Below are positions 14,071 to 30,413 of a stretch of DNA of 52,893 nt, in pieces. The translations under genes and the position numbers were made by a program. Source of the DNA: Kutzneria sp. (lineage in GTDB: Bacteria; Actinomycetota; Actinomycetes; Mycobacteriales; Pseudonocardiaceae). The notes beneath the pieces are model-generated. The model had not been told where the DNA came from, did not search any database, and saw only the letters and a program-made list of their open reading frames with translations. Location of the stretch: contig JAFAZC010000003.1 of assembly GCA_019239965.1 (NCBI GenBank), forward strand, positions 1 to 52,893, given 5' to 3'. The first letter of the stretch is position 1. Each line of letters begins with the position of its first letter.

Positions 14071-15289
14071 TCACACGGCCGACTCGACGGCCACTGGGCG
14101 GTCGCGCCTCGCCAGGCGCATCAGGACGGCGAGCACGGCCATCAACGCGACCGTCGCGCCGGACACGAGGAACAGGAAGGCGTTCATCTCCCCCGCGGAC
14201 AGGTAACTGGCCAGCGCGGCGACGACGAGGGCGCACACCGCCCGGTCGATCAGGGACTCGACGGACAGCACCGTCGCACGGCAGCTAGGGTCGCCGATCG
14301 CGTCATTGATCAGCTGCCGTTGGATGGGGAACGACAACCCGATCGCGAACGAGAACACGCACAGGCACACGATGGTCGCGGCGAGGGCAACCGGCACGAT
14401 CAACGCGAGGCAGCCCGCCATGGTGACCGTCAGCACGAAGATCGCGGGAATGTCCCGGAGGAAACGGCGCGGCCAGCTCGGTCGCGCCGCGCCGAGCGCC
14501 TCGAACACCGTGGTCACCGCCATCACCATGCCGTAGCCTTCCAGCGGAAGGTGTTTGACGTCGAGGACCGGCTGCAGCAGGTTAGCCTGCATGACCCTGG
14601 CCAGCGTGAAGATCGCCACCCCCTGCACCATCAGCAGGACAAGCATCCGTGAACGCCGCAGCAGCCTCAGCGATCGCGCGAGAGCTGCCCACCTCCGCGC
14701 GGAGGACAGCTCGTGGGGCAACGCCGGGCCCGGCAGCGGGGGCAGCCGCAGCGCCAGCACCGTCGCGGTCGCACCGCTGACCGCGGACAGCAGGTACGGT
14801 GTGGGCAGGTACCACTGCATCAACAGACCGGCGGCCGGAAAACACACGATCCCGGCCAACGAGGCTGTAGGCGCGAGCACCGCCTTCGGCCTGGCGGTAA
14901 GCCTCCCCAGCACCGGAGCGGTGCAGGTACTCGTACAGGTACGCACTGCCGGCACCCGAGGTGAGCGAGTACGCCAGTGCGATCAGCAGGAAGTGCGTGA
15001 GGAAACCGCCATAGGACGGCCAGACCACGGGTGTGAGGTTCGCGACCGCGAGGATCGCGGCACCGGCCACCAGGAACCTGCGGTAGTCGAACCGGTCGGC
15101 AAGGATGCTGGTTGGGATGTCTAGTGCGAGGAACATCGCGTAGTAGATGCTCTGAATACCGAAGATCTCCCCGTCGGAGAGGCCGACGTCGCGCTGGTAG
15201 CGGTAGAAGATCGGCAGCCACCACAGCAGCGCGTTGAACAAGGTGAAGACCTTGTAGAGCCGGATGACCCGGCGCACGGGAAACACCAC
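14071..15289 (-). pseudogene. MFS transporter disrupted by a frameshift
   Basis: Two overlapping frames make one protein. The first, from a GTG at 15289 (MVFPVRRVIRLYKVFTLFNA), gives the first four or five membrane helices (LLWWLPIFYRYQRDVGLSDGE, DIPTSILADRFDYRRFLVAG) and stays sensible to about EAYRQAEGGARAYSLVG near 14870. The second frame takes over at LAGIVCFPAAGLLMQWYLP near 14860 and continues with six or seven helices to the stop at 14071. Joining them needs a +1 shift (one extra base or two missing) around 14850-14885. The whole would be about 405 residues, normal for MFS. The GTG lies 3 bases after the upstream PEP-binding fragment's stop. A sequencing error is possible, but the neighbours are also damaged, which favours true decay. 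Confidence 0.75.
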
Positions 15290-15292
15290 GCC

Positions 15293-16400
15293 TCAACCCG
15301 CATAGGGCCGCAGTTGCAGCAGCGAGACTTTCTCCGCGTCGGCCGCCCATTCGATGTCCACCGGGGTGCTGAAGGTGTAGTCCGGCGCGAAGTGTGCCTG
15401 CAGCAGCCGGCTGATGACAGCAAGTCGGCCGAGCTGCTCCCTGGCCGCGGTGTCGAGGTCCTCGGCTGAGGCACCAAGCGAGATGGTCCGTCCACCGCCT
15501 TCGACGGTGTTGTACAGGTACTGCAGGGGAGCCCGGTCACCGGACACGACTTCGGTCACCGAACGCGGGGACACGTTGACGTACACGTTGCGGAAGTCCG
15601 TGCGGTTCATGGGATTGGTACTGACCAGCACGCCTCCGTAGTCGGCGTGCACCTGTTCCTGAATGATGACGCCCATGTAGCAGTCGTCCAGCGATATCCC
15701 GGCCTGCTCCCGCATCCGCACGCTACGGGTCGACACCAGTGACGCCCACACCTGCCTGATGCTGTCCAGCACCGTGGCGGCGGTGCTGACGTGGTTGACC
15801 GATTCGTAGATCCCGGCCGCGGAGAATCCCGCGAGGTCCTCGGCGTTGGACGAACTGCGGACCACGAACGTGCTGGTGCCGGAGAGGTTCTCGATGATGG
15901 CGTTGTCGATCTCCGTTGCCATGTCCGCCGGCAGCTTTGCCGCGCGGATGAGCCGCTGCAGCTGCACGCACTGTGCGTCGATCTCGCGGGCGTTCAGCTC
16001 GAGAGCCATCTTGAGCTTGCCGATGGCCTGCTGGATCGCCGGTGACGACTCCAGGAAACGCCGTTGGAGTGAGAACGGCAACGCGATGCCGCGCGGCACA
16101 CGTACGTGCTCGGCGATCAGCCGATGGGCGGCATCGGCCAACGCGGTGGTGTCCGACGCGTCGCCGACTCCGAGGTGCCTGGCCAGGTAGCCGAGCAGGT
16201 TTTTCCTGGGAGGGCGCGGAATGCGGTAGAACCCGAGCAGTCGGTTGGACCCCTCGCGGAGCACGGCGCACAGTTCGCCGAGGTTGGCCGCCTTGGTCCC
16301 GAACCGCGGGTGGTCGATGCCCCTCAGTGCCTCCAGCGGCAGGATGGGGCACGCGGTGACCTCCGGGCGTTCGATCTCGGGTTCGTCCGCACCGCGGCCA
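15293..16400 (-). pseudogene. PEP/pyruvate-binding domain protein, 5'-truncated
   Basis: About 365 residues of a PPDK/PEP-synthase N-terminal-type domain are present. Reading begins near ACPILPLEALRGIDHPRFG; FGTKAANLGELCAVL is the nucleotide-fold opening, STFVVRSSSNAEDLAGFSAAG the family's ATP-contact block, GVIIQEQVHADYGGVLVSTNP the second conserved block, and VDIEWAADAEKVSLLQLRPYAG the normal end. Related proteins have several hundred residues before this domain; here the frame upstream of about 16400 reads antisense to a glycosyltransferase relic and has no family signal, ribosome site or plausible start. The gene has therefore lost its N-terminal half at a rearrangement. It lies in tandem with the broken MFS gene, suggesting an old operon. 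A short functional version cannot be fully excluded. Confidence 0.65.
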
Positions 16401-16409
16401 CGCGGCGGC

Positions 16410-16861
16410 TGATGCTCGAGGTGCTGGCCCTGGCGCTGGCGCGGCATCGACGATCGGCCCACCCCGCTGGCCGTCCTCGACCTCGCGCCGCCAAGCATGG
16501 CCCGGCCACAGGAGAGTGGCTGGTCGGTACGACCGACGCACCCGTCCGGGAGGGCGCTGGTGCCGGAGTGGCTGACGCCGCGGTGCACCACGGTGGCAGC
16601 GGCACCGCCCTGTCCGCGGTCGCGGTCGGAGTTCCCCAGCTGCTGCTTCCGGACGGATCGGATCGTTTCCTCACCGCGGAGGCCGTCCGCGAGCGCGGTG
16701 TCGGCCTGAGCGCGACCGTGGACGACATCGACAGTGAGCTGCTCGGCCGCTTGCTGACCGACAGTCGTCTCGCCTCGGCCGCCACGGAGGTGGCTGCCGA
16801 GGTGGCGGCCATGCCCGCGCCCGGGGCCGTGGCATCGCAGATGGCCAGCCTGCTCGGCTGA
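16410..16861 (+). pseudogene. Relic of an EryCIII/DesVII-type glycosyltransferase
   Basis: The 3' end is unmistakable: AAVHHGGSGTALSAVAVGVP followed by QLLLPDGSDRF and a normal terminus at the TGA 16859-16861. This is the nucleotide-sugar-binding half of macrolide-type (GT1) glycosyltransferases. Just upstream, in another frame (16440-16575), PLAVLDLAPPSM and GRALVPEWL resemble the linker region of the same family (PPSL...VPYNGPALVPEWL). The roughly 100 residues normally lying between those blocks are missing, and everything before about 16410 is gone. The gene thus has a 5' truncation, an internal deletion and frame changes. It suggests this place once held, or received, part of a glycosylated secondary-metabolite pathway. 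Confidence 0.65.
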
Positions 16862-16872
16862 CGGCGGACGGG

Positions 16873-19014
16873 TCAGGCCGGTTCCCTGGCGGTGCGCGGA
16901 CCGCGTGGCGTCCGCCTGGGAACCGTCCGCTCGGCCAACGGACACCGCTCCCCCACCCGGCCCGCGCGCTGCAGGTCGAGAAACAGGTCAACCACGACGG
17001 GATCGAACCGTGTCGCTCGCTCCGCGCGCAACCGCTCAGCCGCGGCGAGGGCGCTCAGTGCGGGCTGGTGCGGTCGGTCGAGCAGCAGGTCCGCCCAGTA
17101 CTCGCACACCGACAGGATCCTCGCCTCCACCCGGATCCCGGCGCCGGCGAGCCGTGATGGATGCCCGCCGCCGTCGTAGTGCTCATGCTGCTGGCGGATG
17201 GCGTCGGCGACCGCCGCGAACCCGGGTACCGCCCTGGCCAACCGATAACCGAGTTCCGGGTGCGTGCGGACAAGGCGTCGCTCGTCCTCGCTCCACGGCA
17301 TCGGCTTGGTCAGCACCGACTCCGGAATGACGATCTTGCCGATGGAGTGGAGCCGCCCGGCGAGCTCCGCGGTGCGCACGGTTGCCTCGCTCAGCCCCAT
17401 CGCGGTCGCCAGGATCGCAGACCACCGTCCGACCGCACGGCTGCGGCCCGTCGCGCCAAGCAGCATGTCCACCCGGTCGGCGACAAGGCCGAGGTAGTCG
17501 ACGGTCGCGGTGCCGTCGGGGAACGCCTCGTCGGCGTCCACGGTCATGACCTGGCCGACGATGACCCGGTCTCGTCCCCGCGCCTTGGCCGCGTACAACG
17601 CACGGTCGGCGTTGGACACCAGTTCATTGGGGCTGTCACCGTGCGCGGGAAAGCACGTCGCGCCGACCGAAACGGTCACCGTGATCAGAGTGCCCTCCGA
17701 CACCTCGATCGGCCCGTCGGCCACCCGGTCGCGCAGCCGCTCGGCGATACCCGCCAGCTCGCCGACGCCGGCATCGGGCACCAGCAGCGCGAACTCCTCC
17801 CCGCCGTGGCGGGCGAGCAGGTCGACGTCCCTGCGCGTTGCGGAACCAAGCCGGGCCGCGATCTCACAGAGGGCCTGGTCCCCCGCGGGATGGCCGTAGC
17901 GGTCGTTGACCGACTTGAAGTGGTCGACGTCGATGACGAACACGCCGAGTGAGCCGCCCGTGCGGCGAGCCCGCGCCACCTCGATCGGCAGTTGGATCTC
18001 GAAGAAGCGCCGCGTGTACAGGCCAGTCAGCGAGTCGGTGATGGCCAGCCTCCGCTGGCTCGAGGCGAGGCTCGCCAGTCGGGCGATGGTCAGCCCGAAA
18101 AGCAGGACGCAGGCGATCGCGATGACCGCGGCATCCCGCAGACCGCCGGTGGAGTTCTGCACCACCAGGGTGATCGGCACGATCAGCGCGGTACCGCACA
18201 GCACCGCGATCCGACCAGGGCTGGTGTTGGTGTCCCTCGGTGGGGCGGGTCCGGCCAGCCTGGACATGGTGGGGTGCATCGCGGCCGCGCCGAGCGCCAG
18301 GCTGCTGGCCAGCCAGATGGCGTCGAGGAAGTTGTTGGACTGATAGGTGCCGGCCAGCTGCTGCAGGACGTACACGGTGTCCGCGGTGATCAGCGTGAGC
18401 ACGTGTCCGACGAGGAGGTAGAACGACAGCGGCCGGCGTCCGTCGCCGAGGATCAGTCGCAGTGCCACGACGAGCACGAGCAGGCCCGCGAGGGGATAGG
18501 CAAGCGAGGTGATCTTGGCCAGTACCGGTGTGCCAAGCCGGGCGTTGGGCGCGATCAGGTAAACCCAGGACAGCATTCCCGCCCCTACGCCGATCACACC
18601 CGAGTCGAGCAGGCGGGGTAGGTCGAGGCGGGCGCCGCGGCGGCGGATGAGCGTCATCAATCCGGCCGCGAGCAGCGGATAGTGCGCGAGATAGAACAGG
18701 TCGGCGACACCGGGGTAGTCGGCCACTCCGAACACGTAGTGCGCGAGGCTGAAGCTGATATCGGCAACGGCGTAGCTGACTTGGCTCACCCCGAGTATCG
18801 CCCAGGGCAGCGTGGGATGCGGCCGGTGCCGAAGGATCCCGTAGCCCACCATGATCGCGGCGGACACACTGACCGCGCAGTACAGCACGATCTGTGCCGC
18901 CAGACCAGCTCCCTTGGCCGGGAGGAGGTAGTACACGATCGTCACCAGGGCTCCGGCGGCCAGGTACCCGATCCACATCCGGCTCAGCCCGGCACGCGGA
19001 TCTCTCGCGTTCAT
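16873..19014 (-). CDS. Membrane diguanylate cyclase (GGDEF) with degenerate C-terminal HD-GYP domain
   Basis: A 713-residue protein. Residues 10-310 hold about nine hydrophobic segments, a MASE-like sensory membrane region. The GGDEF domain follows (ITDSLTGLYTRRFFEIQLP, DVDHFKSVNDRYGHPAGDQAL); the active-site motif is HGGEEF near residues 401-406, with an RDVD inhibitory site in the canonical RxxD position before it. It should therefore make c-di-GMP and be product-inhibited. Residues 520-680 resemble an HD-GYP phosphodiesterase, but the metal-binding HD pair is His556-Ser557 (LHSIGKIVIP) and GYP reads GHP (HYDGGGHPSRLAG). That domain is probably inactive or purely sensory. The tail is Arg-rich. 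The gene stands alone, converging on the glycosyltransferase relic. Confidence 0.88.
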   Translation of the reverse strand: MNARDPRAGLSRMWIGYLAAGALVTIVYYLLPAKGAGLAAQIVLYCAVSVSAAIMVGYGILRHRPHPTLPWAILGVSQVSYAVADISFSLAHYVFGVADYPGVADLFYLAHYPLLAAGLMTLIRRRGARLDLPRLLDSGVIGVGAGMLSWVYLIAPNARLGTPVLAKITSLAYPLAGLLVLVVALRLILGDGRRPLSFYLLVGHVLTLITADTVYVLQQLAGTYQSNNFLDAIWLASSLALGAAAMHPTMSRLAGPAPPRDTNTSPGRIAVLCGTALIVPITLVVQNSTGGLRDAAVIAIACVLLFGLTIARLASLASSQRRLAITDSLTGLYTRRFFEIQLPIEVARARRTGGSLGVFVIDVDHFKSVNDRYGHPAGDQALCEIAARLGSATRRDVDLLARHGGEEFALLVPDAGVGELAGIAERLRDRVADGPIEVSEGTLITVTVSVGATCFPAHGDSPNELVSNADRALYAAKARGRDRVIVGQVMTVDADEAFPDGTATVDYLGLVADRVDMLLGATGRSRAVGRWSAILATAMGLSEATVRTAELAGRLHSIGKIVIPESVLTKPMPWSEDERRLVRTHPELGYRLARAVPGFAAVADAIRQQHEHYDGGGHPSRLAGAGIRVEARILSVCEYWADLLLDRPHQPALSALAAAERLRAERATRFDPVVVDLFLDLQRAGRVGERCPLAERTVPRRTPRGPRTAREPA

Positions 19015-20239: not shown

Positions 20240-21622
20240 GTGTCCGAACAGGTTCAGCAGCCTGAGCGCTGGAGCCTGGTGGCAGTCGCTGGCGTCCTGT
20301 CCTTCGTGGCCATGCTGGACATGAACATCGTCACCGTGGCGGTGCCACACATCAGCCGCGCTCTCGATGTCACACCCGAGGTCGGCCAGTGGGCATTGCT
20401 CGGCTACCAGGTGCCGGTGGTCGCCTTGCTGCTTCCCGTCGGACAGTGGCTGAAGTCCTCCGGCATGCGCCCCGCGCTGCTCGTCTCGGTCGTCGCGTTC
20501 GGCACGTGCAGCGTGGCCGCCGCGCTGTCGCCGACGATGAGTTGGCTGATCATCGCCCGCGTGCTGCAAGGCGGTTTCGGCGCCGTGTTGTTCGTGCTGA
20601 TGCCGACCCTGGCCGCCCGTGCCGTGCGGCCCGAACGTCGTGGCCGGGCCATGAGTGTTCCCGCCACCCTCGGGCCTCTTGGCGCTGTGACCGGTCCCGC
20701 ACTGGGCGGGGTCTTGCTCGACCATCTCGGCTGGCAAGCGATCTTTCTGGTCAAGGTCCCCCTGTGCGCGGCGGCCGCGGTGATCGCGTGGCGCGTCATG
20801 CCGCGGGACGGTAGGCCGGCCCGCCCTGACCGCCATACCGTGATCAACGCGGTACTCGTCGCCACCGCCGTGGCCTCGCTCCTGCTGGCACTCACGCTGG
20901 CGCCGGCGGCCCCCGCCTGGCTGAGCTTGGGTTTGGTGGCCGTACTGGCGGCGACATACTGGCTGCGCCACCCCACCGCCCAACCCGTGCTCGCTGTGCT
21001 GCGGACAGCGCGCACCACCGCTGTCAACCTCGCGGTGCTGCTGGTGGCCTGCGCGTTCATGATCATGCACTACCTGGTTTCGCTGCACCTACAGCGTGAC
21101 GACGGCGTCAGCGCGTCCACCACCGGTCTGACCATGTTGGCTTTTCCCTTGGCCATGGGGCTGGCTGGCCCGGTGGGCGGTCGGCTCGCCGACCTGTGGG
21201 GCAGCCGCCGGATCGCCACGATCGGCGCGGCGTTCACCACAGCCGGCCTGCTCCTGCTCGTACCAATCAGCGGTTCCTGGTCTCCTGTGGACGTGGTTTG
21301 GCGGCTGGCACTGGCTGGGCTCGGCATGGGGCTGTACGGCGGCCCGACCCAGGCCTTGGTGATGACCGCGGCGCCCGCCGACCGGATGGCCCTCGCCGGC
21401 GCCGCCGTCCAGCTCTCCCGCAGTCTCGGTTTCACCCTCGGTCCGGCTCTCGGCACCGCGGTGTGGGGGCTGGCCGGTGGCGGTGATGCGGGGACGAAGG
21501 CGGGAATCGGGCTAGCGGTCATCGCCGGCGCGGGTGCCGTGCTGCTGCTTGCCAAACCATGGCTGGCCCGCTCCGTCGTCCGGCCTGTCTTGCCCTCCGA
21601 CTCAGCAATAAGGAGAACCTGA
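20240..21622 (+). CDS. MFS exporter, DHA2 (EmrB/QacA-like) family
   Basis: A 460-residue polytopic protein from a GTG with a G-rich ribosome site 6 bases upstream. The first helix contains MLDMNIVTVAVPHISRALD, the DHA2 motif around the essential Asp and Asn of helix 1. Motif C-like LGPLGAVTGPALGGVLLDHLGW lies near residue 150, followed by regularly spaced hydrophobic helices (12-14). DHA2 transporters export drugs and secondary metabolites by proton antiport. It is the first gene of a tight operon: the asparagine synthetase ATG follows its stop by 3 bases. Its likely job is export of the isonitrile product and self-protection, inferred from position. Confidence 0.88.
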   Translation: MSEQVQQPERWSLVAVAGVLSFVAMLDMNIVTVAVPHISRALDVTPEVGQWALLGYQVPVVALLLPVGQWLKSSGMRPALLVSVVAFGTCSVAAALSPTMSWLIIARVLQGGFGAVLFVLMPTLAARAVRPERRGRAMSVPATLGPLGAVTGPALGGVLLDHLGWQAIFLVKVPLCAAAAVIAWRVMPRDGRPARPDRHTVINAVLVATAVASLLLALTLAPAAPAWLSLGLVAVLAATYWLRHPTAQPVLAVLRTARTTAVNLAVLLVACAFMIMHYLVSLHLQRDDGVSASTTGLTMLAFPLAMGLAGPVGGRLADLWGSRRIATIGAAFTTAGLLLLVPISGSWSPVDVVWRLALAGLGMGLYGGPTQALVMTAAPADRMALAGAAVQLSRSLGFTLGPALGTAVWGLAGGGDAGTKAGIGLAVIAGAGAVLLLAKPWLARSVVRPVLPSDSAIRRT

Positions 21623-21625
21623 GGC

Positions 21626-23464
21626 ATGTGCGGTATCACCGGTTGGGTGTCCTTTGAACAGGACCTGTCCACCCGCGCTGCCATCGTCGAGTCGATGACG
21701 GCAACCCTGGTCAACCGCGGTCCCGATGCCGCGGGCACCTGGCTGGGCGAACACGCGGCCTTCGGTCACCGGCGCCTGAGTGTCATCGATCTCGAGGGCG
21801 GCGTTCAGCCCATGATCGATCGCGTTGACGGCTACGACACCGTGCTCAGCTACAGCGGCGAGACCTACAACCACCACGAACTGCGGGAACGTCTGCGGCG
21901 ACTCGGCCACAAGTTCCGCACCCGCAGCGACACCGAGGTGGTGTTGCGGGCCTACCAGGAGTGGGGCGCGGATCTTGTCGACCAGTTGGAAGGCATGTAC
22001 GCCTTCGCGATCTGGGACGAACGCCGACAACGACTGCTGCTGGTTCGGGACCGGCTCGGAATCAAGCCGCTGGTCTTCGCCGAGATCAGTGGCGGCATCG
22101 TCTTCGGCTCGGAACCCAAGGCGTTGTTCGCCCATCCGGATCTCACTCCGCGGGTGGACGCGGACGGACTCCGGGAGGCCTACAGCCTCCTGTTCAACAC
22201 GGGCCCGACCGTCTGGTCGGGTGTCCGGGAAGTACAGCCGGGTGCCGCGATCACCTTCGACCGGGGTGGGCTGTCCGAACGGGTGTACTGGCGGCTGGTC
22301 GCCAAGCCGCACACTGACGACCTCGACACCGCCGTCGAGCGGATGCGGCTGCTGGTCGGTCAGGCGGCGTCCTCACAGCTGGAGGCCGACGTTCCACTGT
22401 GCAGCCTGCTGTCCGGCGGCCTGGACTCGACGGTGCTCACCGGTCTGCTCGCCGGTGAGCTGCGGCGGAGGGATGGCGACACGGCCAGGCTGCGCTCCTA
22501 CGCCGTCGACTACAGCGACCAGGCGGAAAAGTTCACCAGCGACGTGCTGCGTACCGGGCACGACACGCCGTACGCCGCCGAAGCCGGCCGATTCATCGGT
22601 ACCGATCACAGCACGGTGGTTCTCGATCCGCACGCACTGCTCGACCTCGACCACCGACGCGCCGTCGTGACCTGCCGCGACTCGCCGATCGGCGTCGGCG
22701 ACATGGACACGTCACTGTACTTGCTGTTCGGGGAGATCCGCAGCCACTCGACGGTGGCGCTGTCCGGTGAGGCCGCCGACGAGGTGTTCGGCGGCTATCC
22801 CTGGTTCCACAACCCGAAGGCACTCGCCGCCACCACGTTTCCCTGGCTGCTGGTCACTGGAGATGAAGCGGCGATGCCACTGAACCCCAATCTCGCCGCC
22901 ACTTTGCGCATCACCGAATTCCGTAACGACACCTACCGCGACGCGCTCGCCGCCGTTCCCCACCTCGACGGAGAGGACGAGACCGAGCACCGTCAGCGGG
23001 AGATGCAGCACCTGTCGCTAACCAGATGGCTGCGACAGCTGTTGCACCGCAAGGACAGACTCAGCATGGCACAAGGTCTGGAGGTTCGCGTCCCCTATTG
23101 CGACCACCGCCTTGTCGAGTATGCCTTCGATACACCGTGGTCGCTGCACAGCCACGACGGACGGGAAAAAAGTCTGCTGCGTTCGGTCGGCCATGGGGTC
23201 GCACCCGACTCGGTGCTGTACCGGGCGAAGAACCACTATCCGGCCACTCACCACCCCGACTACAACAGGGGACTGCAGAAGCTGGCCCACGAGGCTCTCG
23301 GCGCCCACGGCGGCACGGTACGCGAACTCGCTGACGAGACCCAGATTAAGCCCTACCTGGACCTTGAACCCGACCGGTTGGAGTGGGGGCACCGACTTCG
23401 CCTTGAACGGGTGGTCGATCTCGCGTTGTGGTTGGACCACTATCGCCCCGAGCTGGTCCTGTAG
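21626..23464 (+). CDS. asnB: Asparagine synthetase (glutamine-hydrolysing) family protein
   Basis: A 612-residue class-II glutamine amidotransferase with a ribosome site (AAGGAG) inside the end of the exporter gene. Cys2 (MCGITGWV) is the expected N-terminal nucleophile after Met removal; NRGPDAAGTW and SGETYNHHELR complete the glutaminase pocket in the form common to actinobacterial AsnB proteins. The synthetase half has the ATP pyrophosphatase loop SGGLDS (residues 263-268) and ALSGEAADEVFGGY. Canonical activity converts aspartate, ATP and glutamine to asparagine. Homologues in biosynthetic clusters can amidate other carboxylates. Placement between an exporter and a P450 in one operon suggests amidation of the pathway product, though a housekeeping paralogue is possible. 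Confidence 0.88.
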   Translation: MCGITGWVSFEQDLSTRAAIVESMTATLVNRGPDAAGTWLGEHAAFGHRRLSVIDLEGGVQPMIDRVDGYDTVLSYSGETYNHHELRERLRRLGHKFRTRSDTEVVLRAYQEWGADLVDQLEGMYAFAIWDERRQRLLLVRDRLGIKPLVFAEISGGIVFGSEPKALFAHPDLTPRVDADGLREAYSLLFNTGPTVWSGVREVQPGAAITFDRGGLSERVYWRLVAKPHTDDLDTAVERMRLLVGQAASSQLEADVPLCSLLSGGLDSTVLTGLLAGELRRRDGDTARLRSYAVDYSDQAEKFTSDVLRTGHDTPYAAEAGRFIGTDHSTVVLDPHALLDLDHRRAVVTCRDSPIGVGDMDTSLYLLFGEIRSHSTVALSGEAADEVFGGYPWFHNPKALAATTFPWLLVTGDEAAMPLNPNLAATLRITEFRNDTYRDALAAVPHLDGEDETEHRQREMQHLSLTRWLRQLLHRKDRLSMAQGLEVRVPYCDHRLVEYAFDTPWSLHSHDGREKSLLRSVGHGVAPDSVLYRAKNHYPATHHPDYNRGLQKLAHEALGAHGGTVRELADETQIKPYLDLEPDRLEWGHRLRLERVVDLALWLDHYRPELVL

Positions 23465-23510
23465 GCCCAAGCGTCTATCAGGTCATTCGCTCGGCAGGAA
23501 GGAAATTCGC

Positions 23511-24731
23511 ATGACCGAACCGATCCCACTGATCGGTCGCGACTACAAACGCGACCCCTATCCGCTCTACCGGCGGATGCGCGACGCAGGACCGGTGCAC
23601 CGGGTTCGCTTCCCCAGCGGTGTCAACGCATGGCTGGTGACCGGATACCAGGCCGCACACGAGGCGCTCAACGACGACCGGCTCGGGAAGAACCACTCGC
23701 GGGGCAACGCCGCATGGCATTCTCGTGCCGCGATCATGCCCGAACCCCAGCACTCCCAGCTCCAGGTCCACCTGCTGCACCAGGATCCGCCCAAACACAC
23801 CACGATGCGCCGGCTCGTGCTCGACGCCTTCGCGCCTCGCAGAGTGCAGGCGATGCGTCCCCGTTTCCAACAGCTCGCCGACGCACTGGTCGACGCCATG
23901 CCGGCCACCGGCGGCGCCGACGTCGTGGCCTGCTTCGCCGCACGGTTCCCCTTCCAGGTGCTCGCCGAGGTGATCGGCCTCCCACCAGAGCTGGCGGGCC
24001 GGTTTCGGCGGGAGTGGGGCAAGGTCGTGCAGCCGGTCGGTCCCACCGATCCCGGGAGAGCGGCGTACGAGAGACTGCTAAGCGGTCTGCAGACCTACAT
24101 CGCCGAGGTCGTCGACCACAGTCGGACGAGTCAGGACGACAGCCTGCTCACCCGTCTCGTGCGTGCCAAAGACGCTGGTGAACTGAGCAGGGAAGAACTG
24201 GATTCCATGATCTTCCAACTGCTCGTCGCCGGCCAGGAACCGGTCACCAACCAGATCAGCACCGCGCTGATGACCCTGTTACGCCACCCCGACCAGTTGA
24301 CGTTGCTGCGAGACGAACCCGAACGGATCGACAAGGCGGTGGACGAGCTCCTTCGCTACGACAGCGCCTTCGAATTGACCACATGGCGGTTCTTCGCCGA
24401 GGATTCCGACCTGCACGGCACCCGAATTCCCGCGGGCGACTCGGTCATCGTGTCGCTGTGCGCCGCCAACCGGGATCCGCGACACTTCACCGACGCCGAC
24501 ACACTCGACTTCGACCGAACCCCGAACGCGCACCTCGCGTTCGGACACGGCATCCACTTCTGTCCCGGCGCCACCCTGGCCCGGGTGGAGCTGCAGATCG
24601 CCATCGACACCCTGCTCAGGCGATTGCCCGGCATCGCCTTCGCCGTTCCCGACGAGGACATCGAGTGGGTTCCCGCCGTACTGTCCCGCGGGGTCAACAG
24701 TCTTCCGGTGGTGTTCAACCGACGAACCTGA
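23511..24731 (+). CDS. Cytochrome P450 with atypical I-helix
   Basis: The ATG at 23511, 7 bases after a GGAAGGAAA ribosome site, gives 406 residues, the typical soluble bacterial P450 length. The open frame reaching back to 23112 lies within asnB and is not used. The heme loop is FGHGIHFCPGATLAR with Cys351 as ligand; the ExxR pair is in DELLRYDS and the PERF-like region around DFDRTPNAHLAFG. The I-helix reads LLVAGQEPVTNQI (residues 238-250): Pro244 replaces the threonine that usually helps protonate the iron-bound oxygen. Such losses occur in P450s doing coupling or substrate-assisted chemistry. It probably tailors the isonitrile made by the next gene (oxidation, decarboxylation or coupling), which is inference from the operon. 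Confidence 0.92.
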   Translation: MTEPIPLIGRDYKRDPYPLYRRMRDAGPVHRVRFPSGVNAWLVTGYQAAHEALNDDRLGKNHSRGNAAWHSRAAIMPEPQHSQLQVHLLHQDPPKHTTMRRLVLDAFAPRRVQAMRPRFQQLADALVDAMPATGGADVVACFAARFPFQVLAEVIGLPPELAGRFRREWGKVVQPVGPTDPGRAAYERLLSGLQTYIAEVVDHSRTSQDDSLLTRLVRAKDAGELSREELDSMIFQLLVAGQEPVTNQISTALMTLLRHPDQLTLLRDEPERIDKAVDELLRYDSAFELTTWRFFAEDSDLHGTRIPAGDSVIVSLCAANRDPRHFTDADTLDFDRTPNAHLAFGHGIHFCPGATLARVELQIAIDTLLRRLPGIAFAVPDEDIEWVPAVLSRGVNSLPVVFNRRT

Positions 24732-24806
24732 TCTGAGCACCGCCGTCACGTCGCTCATGCCGAGCACCCGCTCGAGCATCCTGTCACCATGCCCACTGGA
24801 GGAAGC

Positions 24807-25778
24807 ATGTCAGTAGTGGAGGTACCGCCGACCGGCGTCGGCTCGTCTGAGCAAGCGCTGAGCCGCCAAGAGGTCCGTGAGCGCTGCGTCTCCATTATGG
24901 AATTACTCCTGCCGCACAGGCGTGCGGCCGACCTGGACACCGACATCCCGGCAACGGCGTTCGACGAGCAGCTGCGTCAGCTCGCGGCGTTCGTGTCGAC
25001 CGGCGAACCCATTCTGTTCACCCTCCCCGGTTTTCCGTGTAAGTCCCCCAACCCCGCCAAGGTGCTCGGCCATCTCCCCGACGAGGGCGAGCGGCTCTCC
25101 CTGCGCTTCCTCGACCAGCTGTGTGTCGCGGTCAAGGACGTGTACGAGCCCGGTGCGCGGATGCTGATCTGCTCGGACGGTCACGTCTTCGCCGACCTCA
25201 TCAGCGTTCCCGACGAGCACGTCGACGCCTACTCCGACGAGCTGGTCGCCATGATCGCGAAGGAGGAGCTCTCCCATCTGGGCACCTTCGATCTCCGCGA
25301 CGTCTACGGCGACATGTCCTATCAGGACAAACGAACCCGCCTCGCGGACGGCTACCACGCGACCGAGGACGACCTGCGTGCTGAGACGCTGACCAATCCG
25401 GACACCATGCGCCTCTATCTGGGGATCACCCGGTTCCTCGTCGACGACACCGCGGAGTTCTCCGGAACCAAGTCGGCGTTGCAGCGGCAGTGCCGCGCCC
25501 GTGCCTACGGTGTGATCCAGCGCAGCAGGGCCTGGGGCGAGCTGATCGCCCGCCGTTTCCCACGACAGGTGCGGCTGTCCATCCATCCGCAGCCGCGGGG
25601 CTCGATCAAATTCGGGATCCGGTTGCTGCAGATCAAGGACGTCTGGACCACGCCGTGGCATTCGGCCGTCCTCAAACACGGCGACGGCGAGTGGGAGCTG
25701 ATGCGCAAGACCGATGCGGAACGGCATGGTCGACTGGTGCTGCACGACGGGAGGCCGAGCCACTTCGAGGCCGCCTGA
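24807..25778 (+). CDS. Isocyanide (isonitrile) synthase, DIT1/PvcA family
   Basis: A 323-residue protein from the ATG at 24807, just after GGAGGA; an ATG 18 bases earlier lacks a ribosome site. Family blocks are well preserved: LPGFPCKSPNPAKVLGHLPD (residues 73-92), MLICSDGHVFADLISVPDEH (around 120-138), VRLSIHPQPRGSIKFGIRLL (around 256-275) and TTPWHSAVLKHGDGEWELMRK (from 280). PvcA/IsnA enzymes convert an L-amino acid, usually tyrosine or tryptophan, to a vinyl isonitrile acid using ribulose-5-phosphate as the carbon donor. Bacterial members normally sit next to an Fe(II)/2-oxoglutarate oxygenase (PvcB/IsnB); none is present here, and a P450 precedes instead. It is the last gene of the operon. 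Substrate choice cannot be read from sequence. Confidence 0.9.
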   Translation: MSVVEVPPTGVGSSEQALSRQEVRERCVSIMELLLPHRRAADLDTDIPATAFDEQLRQLAAFVSTGEPILFTLPGFPCKSPNPAKVLGHLPDEGERLSLRFLDQLCVAVKDVYEPGARMLICSDGHVFADLISVPDEHVDAYSDELVAMIAKEELSHLGTFDLRDVYGDMSYQDKRTRLADGYHATEDDLRAETLTNPDTMRLYLGITRFLVDDTAEFSGTKSALQRQCRARAYGVIQRSRAWGELIARRFPRQVRLSIHPQPRGSIKFGIRLLQIKDVWTTPWHSAVLKHGDGEWELMRKTDAERHGRLVLHDGRPSHFEAA

Positions 25779-25785
25779 GCCACTC

Positions 25786-26598
25786 TCACACATCGACGAC
25801 CGCCATCTCGTCGGCGGCGGACGTGGCGGCCAGATGGTCCACCGCGATCAGCGGACCACCGGTCAACGGATGCTCCACCACGACGGCGCGGACGCCGAAC
25901 ACGGTGGCTATCAACTCGGTGGTGAGCACCTCCCGCGGCGGGCCAGAGGCGACGATCGAGCCGTGAAGCAGAACGTGTAGCCGGTCGCACACCGAGGCGG
26001 CGGCGTTGAGATCGTGCAGCGCCACCACTGTGGTACGTCGCTGCGCCCGCAGCAGAGCGAGCAGTTCCACTTGGTGGCGCACGTCGAGATGGTTGGTCGG
26101 CTCGTCGAGCACCAGGACATCGGGCTGCTGGGCGAACGCTCGGGCCAGCAGCACCCGTTGCCGTTCCCCTCCGGACAGCTCGGTGAAGCGCTGTCCGGCC
26201 TGCTCCGCCATACCCACCTGGTCGAGAGCGGCCGCCACGATGCGGCGGTCGGTGTCGTCGTCGGCGGCGAAGGCCTGTTTGTAGGGGATACGCCCCATAG
26301 CCACGACCTCACCGACGGTGAACTCGACGTCACCTCCTCGTTCCTGGGGCAATGCGGCGATATGCCTGGCCGCGCGCACCGCTGTCAGCCCCAGGATGTC
26401 CTGCCCGTCCAGCAGAACACGGCCGGCCTGCGGGCGCAGGTGGCGATAGACGGTGCGCAGCAGCGTCGACTTGCCGCTGCCGTTGGGGCCGACAACGCCG
26501 GTAATCTCGCCGCCGGCCGCGACAAGGTTCACCCCAGTGACCACAGCCCTTCCGGACAGGGTCACGCGCAGGTCCTCGATGTCGATCCGCACGGTCAC
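25786..26598 (-). CDS. FecE/FepC/BtuD-type ABC transporter ATP-binding protein
   Basis: A 270-residue ATPase starting at a GTG that overlaps the permease stop by 4 bases (GTGA). Walker A is GPNGSGKST (37-45), the signature LSGGERQRV lies near residue 142, Walker B with VLVLDEPTNHLD follows, and the switch His is in VALHDLNAA. It powers import of iron-siderophore, heme, cobalamin or other metallophore complexes with the two genes upstream. Its stop is 7 bases from the convergent stop of the isonitrile synthase, so importer and biosynthesis operons are packed end to end. Confidence 0.93.
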   Translation of the reverse strand: MTVRIDIEDLRVTLSGRAVVTGVNLVAAGGEITGVVGPNGSGKSTLLRTVYRHLRPQAGRVLLDGQDILGLTAVRAARHIAALPQERGGDVEFTVGEVVAMGRIPYKQAFAADDDTDRRIVAAALDQVGMAEQAGQRFTELSGGERQRVLLARAFAQQPDVLVLDEPTNHLDVRHQVELLALLRAQRRTTVVALHDLNAAASVCDRLHVLLHGSIVASGPPREVLTTELIATVFGVRAVVVEHPLTGGPLIAVDHLAATSAADEMAVVDV

Positions 26599-27680
26599 CG
26601 TTCCAGCCGTCTATTGAGCAGGTACAACAGGGTCGGCGCGCCGATGAGCGCGGTGACGACGCCGATCGGCACCTCCTGGTTGGGCAACGCCACTCTCGCC
26701 ACGAGGTCGACGACCACGAGCAGCAGGGCACCGGCGAGCCCGGAGACCGGCAACAGCCTGCGGTGATCACCGCCGACCACCATCCGGCACACGTGCGGTA
26801 CCACAAGGCCGACGAACGCGATGGCACCCGATACCGCCACGAGTACTCCGGTCAGCATGCTCGTCACGACGAACAGTCCGCGCCGCAACCGCGTCACGTC
26901 CACGCCGAGGCTGGCGGCGGTCTCGTCGCCCATCATGACGGCGTTGAGCGCCCGTGACCGTGCCTGCAGCACCGCGAATCCGAGCAGAACCACGAGGGTT
27001 GGTACGGCCAACTGGTTCCACTCGGCACCGCTGAGGCTGCCGAGAAGCCAGAACAGTACGCCCTGGGTGCGCTGCAGGTCGCCGGCCTGGAGCACGAGGT
27101 AGCTGGTGATGCCCGACAGGAAGTGCGCGATGCCGACGCCGGCGAGGACCACCCGCAACGGGGAGAAACCGCCACCGCGTTTGGCGAACAGCCACACGAG
27201 CACAAAGGACGCGAGTGCGCCGAGGAACGCCGCCGCGGACAACCCGAGCCCGAGCAGTCCACCGCCGTCGACCAACACGATCAGCACGACAGCACCGAGG
27301 GAGGCCCCCGAGGACACACCGAGCAGATAGGGATCGGCGAGCGGATTGCGCACCAGTGCCTGCGCCGCGGTACCCACCAGTCCGAGGCCAGCGCCGACCA
27401 CCGCGGCGAGCAGTACCCTCGGCAGGCGGAGCTGCCAGACGATCAGGTCCGCGGTACCGGTGTCGACCCCGCCGAGGAGATGCTGGCCGATCACCGACCA
27501 CACCCGGCCGATCGGGATGCCGATTGTTCCCGAGGACACCGCGAGTGTTGACGCGGCGACCAGGGCCACGACGAGCACGACGGCCACCACCCCGGCCGGC
27601 ACGGCACGGCACGGCCGGCCGCGGCCGTGGCGGTCCGCCGCCGGCGCCAGCTGTCCGGCCGCGGTCGCTGGTCGTGCCAT
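26595..27680 (-). CDS. FecCD-type metallophore ABC transporter permease
   Basis: A 361-residue permease. Conserved FecCD elements include IVWQLRLPRVLLAAVVGAGL, GTAAQALVRNPLADPYLLGV (the hallmark near residue 105-125), GVFLWLLGS-like GVLFWLLGSLSG, and the ATPase-contact loop around AASLGVDVTRLRR. About ten membrane helices are expected. As a single permease gene it should act as a homodimer, like BtuC or FhuB-type halves. The ATG overlaps the stop of the binding-protein gene by one base and its own stop overlaps the ATPase start. It moves the metal complex across the cytoplasmic membrane. Confidence 0.94.
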   Translation of the reverse strand: MARPATAAGQLAPAADRHGRGRPCRAVPAGVVAVVLVVALVAASTLAVSSGTIGIPIGRVWSVIGQHLLGGVDTGTADLIVWQLRLPRVLLAAVVGAGLGLVGTAAQALVRNPLADPYLLGVSSGASLGAVVLIVLVDGGGLLGLGLSAAAFLGALASFVLVWLFAKRGGGFSPLRVVLAGVGIAHFLSGITSYLVLQAGDLQRTQGVLFWLLGSLSGAEWNQLAVPTLVVLLGFAVLQARSRALNAVMMGDETAASLGVDVTRLRRGLFVVTSMLTGVLVAVSGAIAFVGLVVPHVCRMVVGGDHRRLLPVSGLAGALLLVVVDLVARVALPNQEVPIGVVTALIGAPTLLYLLNRRLER

Positions 27681-28747
27681 CAGCCCTCACCCCTGACCAG
27701 GCTGGGATACAGGCTCGCGGCGATCGCCCGCACCGTGTCCGCGTCACGGACGCCGGCAATGGCGGTCAGCTGGGAGGTGATCCGCACGAAGTGATCCTGT
27801 CGGACCGCGGCCAGACCACTGGTGGCGGGATACTGGCGGAGAAACTGCTCCGCCTGGTCGAAAGCGGCCGAGGTCGCCTTGTCGTCGCCGCGGTCGCGGA
27901 CACCAAGCTGGATCCAGTCGGGATTCTTCGCGACGACGTCCTCCCAGCTCACCTGGCGGAAGTCGGCGTCACAGTCGGCGTAGACATTGCGGGCGCCGGC
28001 CAGCGTGAAGATCGCGTTGCCGATCTGCTTTCCGCACAGCGCCATCGGCTGCTTGGTGCTCGCGTCGAAATCGAAGAAGAAGTAGCTCGGCCGCTTGTCC
28101 TCGGCCACCCCGGCCACCGCGTCACGCACCGCGTTCACCTTGTGCCGCATGGCCTCGACCAGTTCGTTGGCCTTCGCCGAGGTGCCGGTGACCGCTCCGA
28201 GCCGGGCAATGTCGGCCTCGACGTCCGCGAGATCCCGGCGCTGACCGCTCGACCGAGCGGCGCAGGCCGTCGACAGCAGCGACAGATGCGTGATACCGGC
28301 GGCGGCGAACTCTCGCTCGGTCGGTACCCCGACGGGAGCGCCGCCACCGGCGTCCGGGGCGGCGAACGTGTCAATGTACAGGTCGGCACCGGAGCCGAGG
28401 AGCTCCTCCTTGGCGATCACGGTGTCGCTGAGCACCGGCACCTTCGCGGCGGCTTCGGCGAACTGGGGCGGCAGGGTGCCCTTTCCGGGAGGGAATCCGG
28501 TGCCGATCACCCGGTCACCGGCGCCGAGCCAGAACAGCAGCTCGAGTGCGGACGCGTTGCTAGTGACGATCCTGCGCGGCGCGGACCGAAGGGTGACCTT
28601 GGCGCCGCGACAGTCCGCGACGACGGTGGCCGGGAACCCTGGCCCGGACGCACCACCCGAGGGCACCTCACCGCCGCTTGGGCCAGAGCAGGCCGCGGCG
28701 ACCATCGTGGTGGCGGCGACGACACAGCCGACCACGCGAGCGCCCAT
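27680..28747 (-). CDS. Substrate-binding lipoprotein of the FecCD importer
   Basis: A 355-residue protein from the ATG at 28747 with AGGAGG 4 bases upstream; an in-frame GTG at 28783 lacks this. The signal peptide ends in a lipobox (TMVAAAC, Cys20), so it is a membrane-anchored receptor. The fold is of the periplasmic-binding-protein 2/BtuF-FhuD class: APRRIVTSNASALELLFWLGAGDRVIG, IAKEELLGSGADLYI, and VSWEDVVAKNPDWIQLGVRD are typical blocks. Ligands of this class are ferric siderophores, heme, cobalamin or other metallophores. Given the convergent isonitrile operon, uptake of an isonitrile-metal complex is a reasonable hypothesis; cobalamin or a conventional siderophore remain alternatives. 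Confidence 0.9.
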   Translation of the reverse strand: MGARVVGCVVAATTMVAAACSGPSGGEVPSGGASGPGFPATVVADCRGAKVTLRSAPRRIVTSNASALELLFWLGAGDRVIGTGFPPGKGTLPPQFAEAAAKVPVLSDTVIAKEELLGSGADLYIDTFAAPDAGGGAPVGVPTEREFAAAGITHLSLLSTACAARSSGQRRDLADVEADIARLGAVTGTSAKANELVEAMRHKVNAVRDAVAGVAEDKRPSYFFFDFDASTKQPMALCGKQIGNAIFTLAGARNVYADCDADFRQVSWEDVVAKNPDWIQLGVRDRGDDKATSAAFDQAEQFLRQYPATSGLAAVRQDHFVRITSQLTAIAGVRDADTVRAIAASLYPSLVRGEG

Positions 28748-28936
28748 ACACCCTCCTGACCGTCGCCGGGCGACCGAGGCCACCCGTTGGTCATCTAGTC
28801 GGATCCGAGCCGCGCCGAGTTCCCGTACACCCGGCGACCGACGCAGGGGCTGGCACGGGACACCACCTCGGTGGGCGCCCGCGAGTGTTGGGCGCGGAGG
28901 CGGACCGGGACGGTGTGACGGCCAGCTTCCCGATCA

Positions 28937-28962
28937 GTCGGTCCGGGTTCCACCGGAGTTCC
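28937..28962 (-). promoter_or_regulatory. Candidate ECF-sigma promoter upstream of the importer operon
   Basis: On the minus strand, GGAAC (28958-28962) is followed after 17 bases by CGAC (28937-28940), resembling an ECF -35/-10 pair. Thirteen bases from the -35 onward (GGAACTCCGGTGG) are identical to the element before the anti-sigma gene at 29650, which has the same 17-base spacing to CGAC. Transcription from it would give the importer an mRNA leader of about 180 bases. A fragmentary resemblance to a cobalamin riboswitch was examined and rejected. Confidence 0.45.
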
Positions 28963-28991
28963 CCGATGTCATGTCGATCACCCAGTCGAGG

Positions 28992-29585
28992 TCAACCCGC
29001 GCCGGCCGCTCGGCCCCCCGCCGTGGCACGCACCAGGTCCTCACGTGCTCGCGCCACCCGGGACCGGACGGTGCCGATCGGACAGCCGCACACCTCAGCG
29101 GCCTCGGCGTAGGACAACCCCAACACCTGCGTCAGGACCAGGGCTTCCCGCCGTTCCTGGTCGAGGCCGTCCAGCAGGACCGTCACCTCGACGACGTCCT
29201 CGAAACCGGCCTGGCCGCGCTGCTGTCCGCACTGGGCATCCGCGGCGGCCACCCAGTCCACACCCGCCGCGGTCCGCGGCCGCGCGGCCGCGGACCGGAT
29301 CTGGTCGACGACCACCCGGCGCGCGATGGACAGCAACCAGGTGCGCGCGGAGGAGCGGCCGGCGAACCGCGGCAGACTGCCCAGCGCACGCAGATAGGTC
29401 TCCTGGGTGAGATCGTCGCCGTTGGCGACGCCAGCCAGGTAGGACACGAAGCTCCACACGTCGCGCTGGGTGGCGCGGACGAACTCCTCGAGCGCCGCCC
29501 GGTCGCCGGATCCGGCCGCCAACGCCAGGCCGGTGACGCGTTCGTTGTCAGTCGCGGAGCCAGGCACGCCAAGCAGGGTATCCAT
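28992..29585 (-). CDS. ECF-family RNA polymerase sigma factor (SigC-like)
   Basis: A 197-residue sigma factor from the ATG at 29585; the frame extends further upstream, but that part is antisense to the anti-sigma gene. Region 2 reads FVSYLAGVANGDDLTQETYLRALGSL and FAGRSSARTWLLSIARRVVVDQI; region 4 reads LDQERREALVLTQVLGLSYAEAAEVCGCPIGTVRSRVARARE (its two ends), the helix-turn-helix for the -35 box. There is no long C-terminal extension. It is divergent from a zinc-finger membrane anti-sigma factor, its likely partner, and lies upstream of the importer on the same strand. It probably activates its own neighbourhood in response to a membrane or metal signal. Confidence 0.92.
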   Translation of the reverse strand: MDTLLGVPGSATDNERVTGLALAAGSGDRAALEEFVRATQRDVWSFVSYLAGVANGDDLTQETYLRALGSLPRFAGRSSARTWLLSIARRVVVDQIRSAAARPRTAAGVDWVAAADAQCGQQRGQAGFEDVVEVTVLLDGLDQERREALVLTQVLGLSYAEAAEVCGCPIGTVRSRVARAREDLVRATAGGRAAGAG

Positions 29586-29649
29586 CACACCGCCGCCCAC
29601 CTCCCCTGCCCCTGGACTGGCCCGGGGCCGGGGAACTCCGCGGGGTCCT

Positions 29650-29675
29650 GGAACTCCGGTGGGCCCTGGGACGAC
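29650..29675 (+). promoter_or_regulatory. Candidate ECF-sigma promoter before the anti-sigma gene
   Basis: GGAAC (29650-29654), a 17-base spacer and CGAC (29672-29675) lie directly before the anti-sigma GTG at 29685, so the transcript would be nearly leaderless. A second GGGGAACTCCG copy lies at 29630-29640 without a matching -10. The 13 bases GGAACTCCGGTGG recur upstream of the importer operon with the same spacing, which suggests one sigma factor reads both. Confidence 0.45.
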
Positions 29676-29684
29676 AATGACGAC

Positions 29685-30413
29685 GTGGACTGTGCGACCT
29701 CTCGGGAAGCCTTGTCGGCACAGCTGGACGGGGAGCTGACGCCGGTACCGGCCGACGCGTTGGACCAACACCTCGTCCACTGTCCGGCGTGCCGGGAGTG
29801 GCAGCAGCGGTCCGCGACGTTGACCAGGACACTGCGGGTGCGGGTCGCGACCACGATTCCCGACTTCACCGATGTGGTGCTCGCACAGGCTCCGGTCGTG
29901 GCGCGGCGCTGGTGGCCCCGTGTCGCCCTTGGCGTCACAGCGGTCGTCCAGCTGACTCTCGGCATCGCCCAGGTGTTCGGCGCCGACCAGGCGATGCCGG
30001 GCATGGCCGGCGGCGGCCACCTGTTCAACGAGAGCACCGCGTGGAACCTCGCTCTCGGCCTCGGCATGCTCTGGACGGCGCTGCGCACGAGGGCCGCCGC
30101 CGGGATGCTCCCGGTGATGGCCGGTTTCCTCGCCGTGCTCACGGTCTTCTCCGTGCACGACCTGCTCATCGGGCAGGTCGTCGTGCCCCGTGTCGCCCTG
30201 CACGGACTGCTCATCGTCGGCCTCGGCCTCGTCTACGCCGTGCACCACACCGGCACCGGCCGGCGCGACCCGGTGCCGGAGTTCCCGGACGTGGTACCCG
30301 TCCCTCGGCGGTCCGCCGCCGCGGCGACCGGCCTTGGCGCCGGGCCGACGCGCGAGGATGTCCGCCCCGGCGACGGGCCGTTGCGACCGACCGGCCGGCA
30401 CCACGCCGCCTGA
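29685..30413 (+). CDS. Zinc-finger (ZAS) anti-sigma factor with C-terminal membrane domain
   Basis: A 242-residue protein from the GTG at 29685. The cytoplasmic N-terminus has the ZAS metal-binding pattern with Cys3, His29, Cys33 and Cys36 (DQHLVHCPACREW), as in RsrA/ChrR-type anti-sigma factors. Four hydrophobic segments follow (about 80-100, 122-140, 147-172 and 178-200). The loop after the first contains MPGMAGGGHLFNE, with two Met and one His facing outward, conceivably a metal-sensing site. The tail is polar and Pro/Arg-rich. It should hold the divergent ECF sigma factor inactive. Its own promoter looks ECF-type, giving feedback control. Metal or redox as the signal is inference. Confidence 0.85.
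   Translation: MDCATSREALSAQLDGELTPVPADALDQHLVHCPACREWQQRSATLTRTLRVRVATTIPDFTDVVLAQAPVVARRWWPRVALGVTAVVQLTLGIAQVFGADQAMPGMAGGGHLFNESTAWNLALGLGMLWTALRTRAAAGMLPVMAGFLAVLTVFSVHDLLIGQVVVPRVALHGLLIVGLGLVYAVHHTGTGRRDPVPEFPDVVPVPRRSAAAATGLGAGPTREDVRPGDGPLRPTGRHHAA

Follow-up and report, generated by a model that had tools for sequence, protein, structure and literature searches.

What does an isonitrile gene cluster make when the usual oxygenase partner is missing, and what would the cell use the product for? The question is raised by a 52,893-nucleotide (nt) stretch of contig JAFAZC010000003.1 of Kutzneria sp. (assembly GCA_019239965.1), referred to here as the window, in which genes for an exporter, an AsnB-like amidotransferase, a cytochrome P450 and an isonitrile synthase follow one another on the same strand. 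The genome consists of 208 contigs with a total of 4.70 Mb and a completeness of 93.8%. An earlier note had read the four genes as an operon for an isonitrile of an unrecognised class, perhaps P450-modified or dimerised and carrying a carboxamide. The section it considered, 20240-25778, leaves out a convergent importer, a SigC-type gene and a divergent zinc-finger gene. With these included, the locus is likely to be a hazimycin-type cluster that makes a chalkophore, situated next to a predicted importer and a SigC-type factor predicted to be activated under copper shortage.

In the proposed scheme the PvcA-type synthase would convert L-tyrosine to tyrosine isonitrile, and because no PvcB-type oxygenase is found beside the synthase, the carboxyl group would stay on the isonitrile. 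The AsnB-like enzyme would amidate this carboxyl with glutamine nitrogen and, before or after amidation, the P450 would link two phenol rings carbon to carbon to form a hazimycin-like bis-isonitrile diamide. The DHA2 protein would export the diamide, and the BtuF/FecCD/ATPase importer would return the copper complex. The zinc-finger membrane protein would keep SigC inactive until copper is scarce; freed SigC would then drive transcription of the importer and, in related loci, also of the biosynthetic operon. Hazimycin is a tyrosine-dimer diisonitrile amide; a tyrosine isonitrile with an amidated carboxyl and two joined rings would correspond to hazimycin.

Features of the isonitrile locus and its surroundings in the window
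Feature	Coordinates	Strand	Support
DHA2-type major facilitator superfamily (MFS) exporter, which opens the biosynthetic operon	20240..21622	+	PF07690, E 4.3e-59
AsnB-like glutamine-dependent amidotransferase	21626..23464	+	PF00733 and GATase_7
Cytochrome P450	23511..24731	+	PF00067
Isonitrile synthase, DIT1/PvcA family	24789..25778	+	PF05141, E 1.2e-78
ATP-binding cassette (ABC) importer ATPase	25786..26598	-	PF00005
FecCD/BtuC-type importer permease	26595..27680	-	PF01032, E 1.6e-92
BtuF-like substrate-binding protein	27680..28783	-	PF01497, E 9.1e-14
SigC-type promoter GGGAAC-N17-CGACT before importer operon	28797..28824	-	score 23.1
Second GGGAAC-N17-CGACT before importer operon	28936..28963	-	exact match
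SigC-type extracytoplasmic function (ECF) sigma factor	28992..29585	-	NCBIfam SigC equivalog model at 230.1 bits, above its cut-off of 219
Weaker SigC-type promoter, 7 nt ahead of zinc-finger gene	29647..29678	+	score 14.7, under best shuffled
Zinc-finger protein with four long helices, divergent from SigC gene	29685..30413	+	zf-HC2, PF13490

The gene coordinates are not those of the GC-frame gene caller, since that caller clips starts; the SigC start was chosen by the analyst in a frame that is open further upstream, and the synthase may begin at 24789 or at 24807, where an ATG has GGAGG ahead of it. All four biosynthetic genes were found where the earlier note had placed them. That note had made the novelty of its reading depend on membership of the synthase in PF05141; the protein scores 264.8 bits against a cut-off of 26.4, and its residues 67-313 correspond to positions 3-268 of the 273 in the model. 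With the NCBIfam PvcA model the score is 261 bits, under the 600-bit equivalog cut-off, and residues 42-327 align with the PvcA structure 3e59 at 262 bits. PvcA-type synthases form the isonitrile from L-Tyr and ribulose-5-phosphate. A PvcB-type partner is missing from the locus, as had been said: the TauD/PvcB family (PF02668), the one Fe/2-oxoglutarate oxygenase family searched, has no match on the contig, and matches are present on four other contigs of the same genome. The exporter gene is separated from the AsnB-like gene by 3 bases, and its top NCBIfam model is that of the EmrB subfamily, with a score under the cut-off of that model.

Relatives of the locus were sought by an alignment scan of a species-genome collection, and the best 80 of 227 were taken for comparison; when genomes were scanned with the synthase protein alone, none came up. 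Gene content was assessed by tblastn with the window proteins and counted at a coverage of at least 70%. In 77 of the 80 loci the synthase has a P450 of at least 50% identity beside it, and the gene arrangement is therefore not due to chance. The importer is nearly as frequent (ATPase 72, FecCD 71, BtuF 71, all three genes together 71), followed by SigC (60), full-length DHA2 (46), a PCu(A)C copper chaperone (32) and a full-length copper-type P-type ATPase (23, or 33 with partial matches). By identity alone the counts would be 50 for DHA2, 33 for the copper ATPase and 72 for BtuF. Since several of the 80 loci stop at contig ends, absences of genes are upper bounds. In a tree of the synthases, a branch with support of 99/97 separates 85 of the window's type (a P450 was seen with 82) from five others. 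For the alignments discussed below, the P450, BtuF and DHA2 rows include the window, save in a 72-row BtuF promoter count, and contain duplicate loci (e.g., L046/L107/L116/L117, L031/L104 and L024/L105).

In L044 (4910-7728, minus strand) and similar loci, the PCu(A)C and copper-type P-ATPase genes are situated between SigC and the P450-synthase pair. This arrangement is found mostly in loci that have neither DHA2 nor AsnB.

The two tailoring enzymes bear on the structure of the product. The amidotransferase retains Cys2 and the SGG(L/I)DS pyrophosphate (PPi) loop in 40 of 40 aligned rows. Its best solved relative is the 'hydroxyamidotransferase' 7ylz, with 582 bits, compared with 145 bits for asparagine synthetase B (1ct9). 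The enzyme is predicted from its sequence to convert the isonitrile carboxylate to a carboxamide, and the presence of its gene inside the operon provides a putative carboxamide route, which is a hazimycin-type trait. The P450 displays AGQEPV in its I helix, where PikC has AGHETT; the string VAGQEPVTN is exact in 84 of 87 aligned rows and AGQ(E/D)PV is present in all 87. Phenol-coupling P450s such as CYP158A2 and OxyB are known to have lost the Thr that activates oxygen, and coupling is thus favoured over hydroxylation. The P450 is therefore a putative phenol-coupling, dimerising enzyme.

An alternative, close to the earlier note, is a new class of isonitrile: a monomeric tyrosine-isonitrile amide that the P450 would hydroxylate or epoxidise and that would serve as an antibiotic, not as a metal carrier. 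This is unlikely. It would fit with the best-matching solved P450s, which are macrolide-type monooxygenases such as PikC, and with the capacity of a DHA2 exporter to act as a self-resistance pump. It does not sit well with the change of the I-helix Thr-Thr to Pro-Val in 87 of 87 rows, nor with the neighbours, as the importer trio (71 of 80 loci) and SigC (60 of 80) would be unusual for a pure antibiotic cluster and the copper chaperone and full-length copper ATPase recur in 32 and 23 of 80. A new product class is also ranked lower because hazimycin fits. The part of the earlier note that foresaw a P450-modified or dimerised carboxamide isonitrile is well argued and agrees with hazimycin, and given this match an unrecognised class is not supported. 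A previously known cluster of matching gene content whose product has been characterised, which the earlier note named as grounds for dropping the novelty, probably exists.

The importer genes run on the minus strand, tail to tail with the synthase. Both an exporter (DHA2, 20240-21622) and an importer (BtuF/FecCD/ATPase, 25786-28783) are thus present, a trait of the hazimycin cluster. The BtuF-like protein is predicted to bind the copper-loaded isonitrile. The top NCBIfam models for the ATPase are those of F420-0, corrinoid and heme importer ATPases, and the resemblance of the importer subunits to iron-siderophore, B12 and F420-0 systems would suit a carrier of iron, zinc or cobalt, with SigC answering to that other metal. 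An nrp mutant of M. marinum is reported to be lower in zinc and a zinc role has been reported for the M. tuberculosis product (cited in PMC7924339 and PMC9600254), which points the same way. A carrier for another metal is nevertheless very unlikely, and an iron or zinc carrier is ranked lower because of the copper genes: PCu(A)C, heavy-metal-associated (HMA) and copper-type P-ATPase genes are found near SigC, in some loci with the promoter described below. In addition, M. tuberculosis SigC acts in copper starvation (PMC7924339), and diisonitriles are described as high-affinity ligands of Cu for which no strong binding of Zn was found (PMC9600254).

Copper as the cargo, and SigC as the regulator, are the readings retained here. 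The best solved relatives of the sigma factor are two SigC domains, 2o7g and 2o8x, from M. tuberculosis. In that species, the nrp isonitrile operon and ctpB go up when SigC is induced, and a mutant in sigC falls behind in medium deficient in copper (PMC7924339). Linkage between SigC and the synthase was assessed in 70 genomes of the Kitasatospora purpeofusca genus (E cut-offs 1e-40 and 1e-60). SigC is found in 49 and the synthase in 45; 44 genomes have both, one has the synthase only, five have SigC only and 20 have neither. The two genes are at most 15 kb apart in 40 of the 45 synthase genomes, one of which (G344) is counted through a partial synthase match only. Of the five unlinked genomes, one has no SigC match (G114), two have the genes on different contigs (G148, G363), and in two (G343, G379) they are truly far apart on one contig.

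In a set made up of the window and 99 relatives, four of six P450-type synthases, the window's included, are at most 15 kb from SigC, compared with none of ten other synthases. The ten were picked by lower identity; two of their genomes are without SigC at the cut-off used, and several of the synthases are on a different contig from SigC, where distance cannot be told. None of the ten has a P450 of at least 50% identity beside it, and one has a P450 at 36%. In the open-access literature no published link between SigC and a PF05141 cluster was found (the hazimycin paper may mention one), papers on SigC together with isonitriles or chalkophores are by their titles mycobacterial only, and nothing was found that joins an isonitrile synthase, an asparagine synthetase and a P450.

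A regulatory connection is suggested by the sequence GGGAAC-N17-CGACT, which is present twice before the importer operon. The score of the site at 28797-28824 exceeds the best found in 50 shuffled windows (21.7; mean best 10.1). The exact motif has six matches in the 4.7 Mb genome, two of which are the importer sites, and a reversed control pattern has four. The weaker site ahead of the zinc-finger gene would, judged by its position, give a leaderless mRNA. Upstream of BtuF, GGAAC and CGACT are 17 bp apart (16-18 allowed) in 71 of 72 non-window rows. A matrix was built from these BtuF-upstream sites, and the P450, DHA2, PCu(A)C and copper-ATPase genes were not used. At a score of at least 18 it finds 124 sites in the 1.56 Mb of the 80 loci, 118 of them with the 17-bp spacing, and none in one shuffled copy of each locus. 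Apart from 70 sites at BtuF (training), the sites stand ahead of the P450 (29), DHA2 (10), PCu(A)C (3) and the copper ATPase (1), i.e., 43 of 124 precede non-training genes. The motif is present in 41 of 56 DHA2 rows; the window is among the 15 without it by the pattern used, and some of the 14 such rows examined hold the near form GGGAAC with CCGACC, which the window lacks. In the open-access papers searched, no sequence of the mycobacterial SigC promoter came to light with which the motif could be compared.

The motif was also sought at 20 SigC loci that have no linked hazimycin-type cluster, taken by score from 76 SigC matches; the window, two genomes with a SigC-linked cluster (G012, G016), G018 (which resembles G057) and a second G034 copy were omitted. 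A site scoring at least 15 is found in 17 of the 20, with 26 sites in total. In half of these (13, spread over 13 of the 20 independent loci), the predicted zinc-finger start codon follows at a distance of 7-8 nt (7 nt in 11, 8 nt in 2), and others stand ahead of HMA (2), TauD (1) and copper-ATPase (1) genes.

The zinc-finger protein encoded divergently from SigC is predicted to be an anti-SigC factor that senses external copper or the copper-isonitrile. The motif His-x3-Cys-x2-Cys (H29, C33, C36), beside an ECF sigma gene, is present in 28 of 28 aligned rows. Long helices at 77-100, 111-133, 135-162 and 167-191 in an AlphaFold2 model (mean predicted local distance difference test score 80.3, predicted template modelling score 0.54) are putative membrane helices, and H112, E116, D159 and H173 are invariant across 62 aligned rows. 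If the zinc finger is cytoplasmic, as assumed, the predicted helices would place these four residues near the outer face. Of the 44 PDB matches from a Foldseek search with the model, not one reached E 0.001, and for this reason no fold is claimed.

SigC is also found beside a different isonitrile chemistry. In L128 (6054-8852, minus strand), one of the SigC loci, TauD, FcoT and AMP-ligase genes are directly behind SigC and represent the nrp/sco isonitrile set. Of 249 genomes of the window's family, Pseudonocardiaceae, 16 carry FcoT (PF10862), with 18 loci in all; nine of these loci have a SigC match (at least 56% identity) within about 13 kb, and the stretch read at the other nine has none. 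At the 20 SigC loci, a copper-type P-ATPase is at most 9 kb from SigC in nine and an HMA protein in three. The evidence leans slightly towards one SigC/anti-SigC copper-starvation switch, with the GGGAAC-N17-CGACT promoter and a new four-helix membrane sensor (outer-face His112, Glu116, Asp159 and His173), that governs both the PvcA/P450 hazimycin-type and the nrp/sco lipopeptide pathways, which would replace one another beside the switch across actinobacteria.

The adjacency could instead be that of a passenger, i.e., a single ancestral insertion beside SigC that was inherited and has no regulatory meaning. In its favour, most loci are from Streptomycetaceae and are related by descent, the cluster is away from SigC in two of the six P450-type genomes among the window and its relatives, and G343 and G379 carry SigC and the synthase far apart on one contig. 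Yet the distance, strand and side of SigC relative to the importer vary among loci, SigC and synthase are jointly absent in 20 of the 70 genomes, nrp/sco-type genes of different chemistry are near SigC at nine of 18 loci, and one promoter motif is common to both isonitrile types. This is the least probable of the explanations weighed here.

In L151, L152, L146 and L148, too, a SigC homologue adjoins the nrp/sco-type genes (TauD, FcoT, AMP ligase) or is at most about 13 kb away from them.

Several points weigh against a SigC-controlled, hazimycin-type chalkophore. With a 60% identity floor, full-length AsnB is found in 29 of the 80 loci (30 before the coverage limit) and is missing from 51. A search of the genomes of 48 of these 51 (L034, L079 and L081 were left out) found full-length AsnB of 76-78% identity in six, one of which has two; a seventh has a match over residues 72-611 at 76%, three have only relatives of 52-56%, and in the remaining 38 nothing reaches E 1e-190. 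K. purpeofusca NRRL B-1817, of the same species as the reported hazimycin producer, carries AsnB on a different contig from its synthase, and the roughly 6-10 kb around this AsnB contain no cluster gene. Amidation may thus be dispensable or come from elsewhere. The SigC motif does not occur before the window's DHA2, AsnB, P450 or synthase genes, even at a score of 2, and SigC control in the window is consequently supported for the importer only. No listed gene is behind 11 of the 124 sites in the 80 loci and 9 of the 26 at the 20 SigC loci. Because the genomes share descent, co-occurrence of SigC and synthase overstates independence, and a small Fisher p should not be taken at face value. The importer subunits score highest with F420-0, B12 and iron-siderophore uptake models, and the copper-loaded isonitrile is thus a putative cargo. 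An absent I-helix Thr is no proof of coupling, and the tyrosine substrate is assigned through similarity to PvcA only. It should be noted that product, copper binding and regulation are all predicted from sequence. A zinc role has also been argued for mycobacterial isonitriles (PMC7924339 and PMC9600254).

Some further observations concern AsnB, other PF05141 proteins and the remainder of the window. The NRRL B-1817 AsnB (L115, 10654-12465, minus strand) has 77% identity to that of the window, and this genome has one synthase, with no AsnB beside it. L171 (5610-11500) and L174 (5344-10230) have PF05141 synthases with 46-49% identity to that of the window and an AsnB-like gene (45-47%) nearby, with no related P450; they are perhaps a further amidated isonitrile type. 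The P450-synthase pair of L095 and L098 (Archangium, Myxococcota) is nested among Streptomyces in the tree and is thus likely to have been acquired by horizontal transfer. The record name of L024, Saccharothrix sp. ST-888, is probably outdated, since the genome (G111) falls within the K. purpeofusca genus set. Elsewhere in the window's genome (L002, 814-2655, minus strand), a 613-aa protein matches the first part only of PF05141 (E 3.3e-18), preceded by 270 residues with no Pfam match; frames of about 420-1180 aa that resemble it give weak matches in many relatives. At 14071-16945 of the window (minus strand), an MFS transporter is divided between the overlapping frames 14582-15289 and 14071-14955, and 15293-16945 contains only the N-terminal pyruvate phosphate dikinase (PPDK) domain. 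A frameshift or an assembly error is possible in this stretch.

How bacteria acquire copper is a question to which isonitrile chalkophores are emerging as one answer. The locus described here adds a Kutzneria-like genome, in which the amidation gene is part of the operon, to the range of the hazimycin type. Its SigC module offers a defined regulator with a promoter sequence, and a protein that may sense copper. Such a module would help to separate chalkophore clusters from antibiotic clusters among those that are uncharacterised.

The system most similar to the window's cluster is that of hazimycin, an actinobacterial isonitrile chalkophore. Matsuda et al. in 2024 (J Antibiot 77:228) reportedly described hazimycin biosynthesis in Kitasatospora purpeofusca, with importer and exporter genes around the biosynthetic genes. 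K. purpeofusca NRRL B-1817 has the order sigC-DHA2-P450-synthase with a convergent importer and shares the synthase-P450 pair with the window. However, AsnB is inside the operon in the window and on another contig in NRRL B-1817, and SigC is behind the importer in the former and before DHA2 in the latter. The PvcA/PvcB (paerucumarin) and rhabduscin/indole isonitrile pathways have the PF05141 synthase family in common with the window, but in these the synthase is partnered by an oxygenase; the window has no TauD-type oxygenase on the contig, and the carboxyl is predicted to be amidated, not lost. The structure 7ylz is presumably TsnB9 of trichostatin biosynthesis, an AsnB-like enzyme that acts on a natural-product carboxyl, and the substrate and nitrogen donor of the window's enzyme are predicted to differ. 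Fungal xanthocillin pathways use P450-type dimerisation, and the isonitrile of nrp/sco products is made by a TauD-type oxidase on a nonribosomal peptide synthetase line, not by a PF05141 protein. The fungal clusters have an isocyanide synthase as does the window (PMC5974471), whereas the amidotransferase, ABC importer and adjoining SigC are bacterial features of the window. The nrp/sco diisonitrile lipopeptides of M. tuberculosis and S. thioluteus are isonitrile chalkophores also, under SigC control in M. tuberculosis (PMC7924339), and none of their biosynthetic genes is common to the window. The window's cluster is best read as a new representative, from a Kutzneria-like genome, of the hazimycin-type chalkophore clusters, under a sigma/anti-sigma switch for copper starvation that two isonitrile chemistries would have in common.

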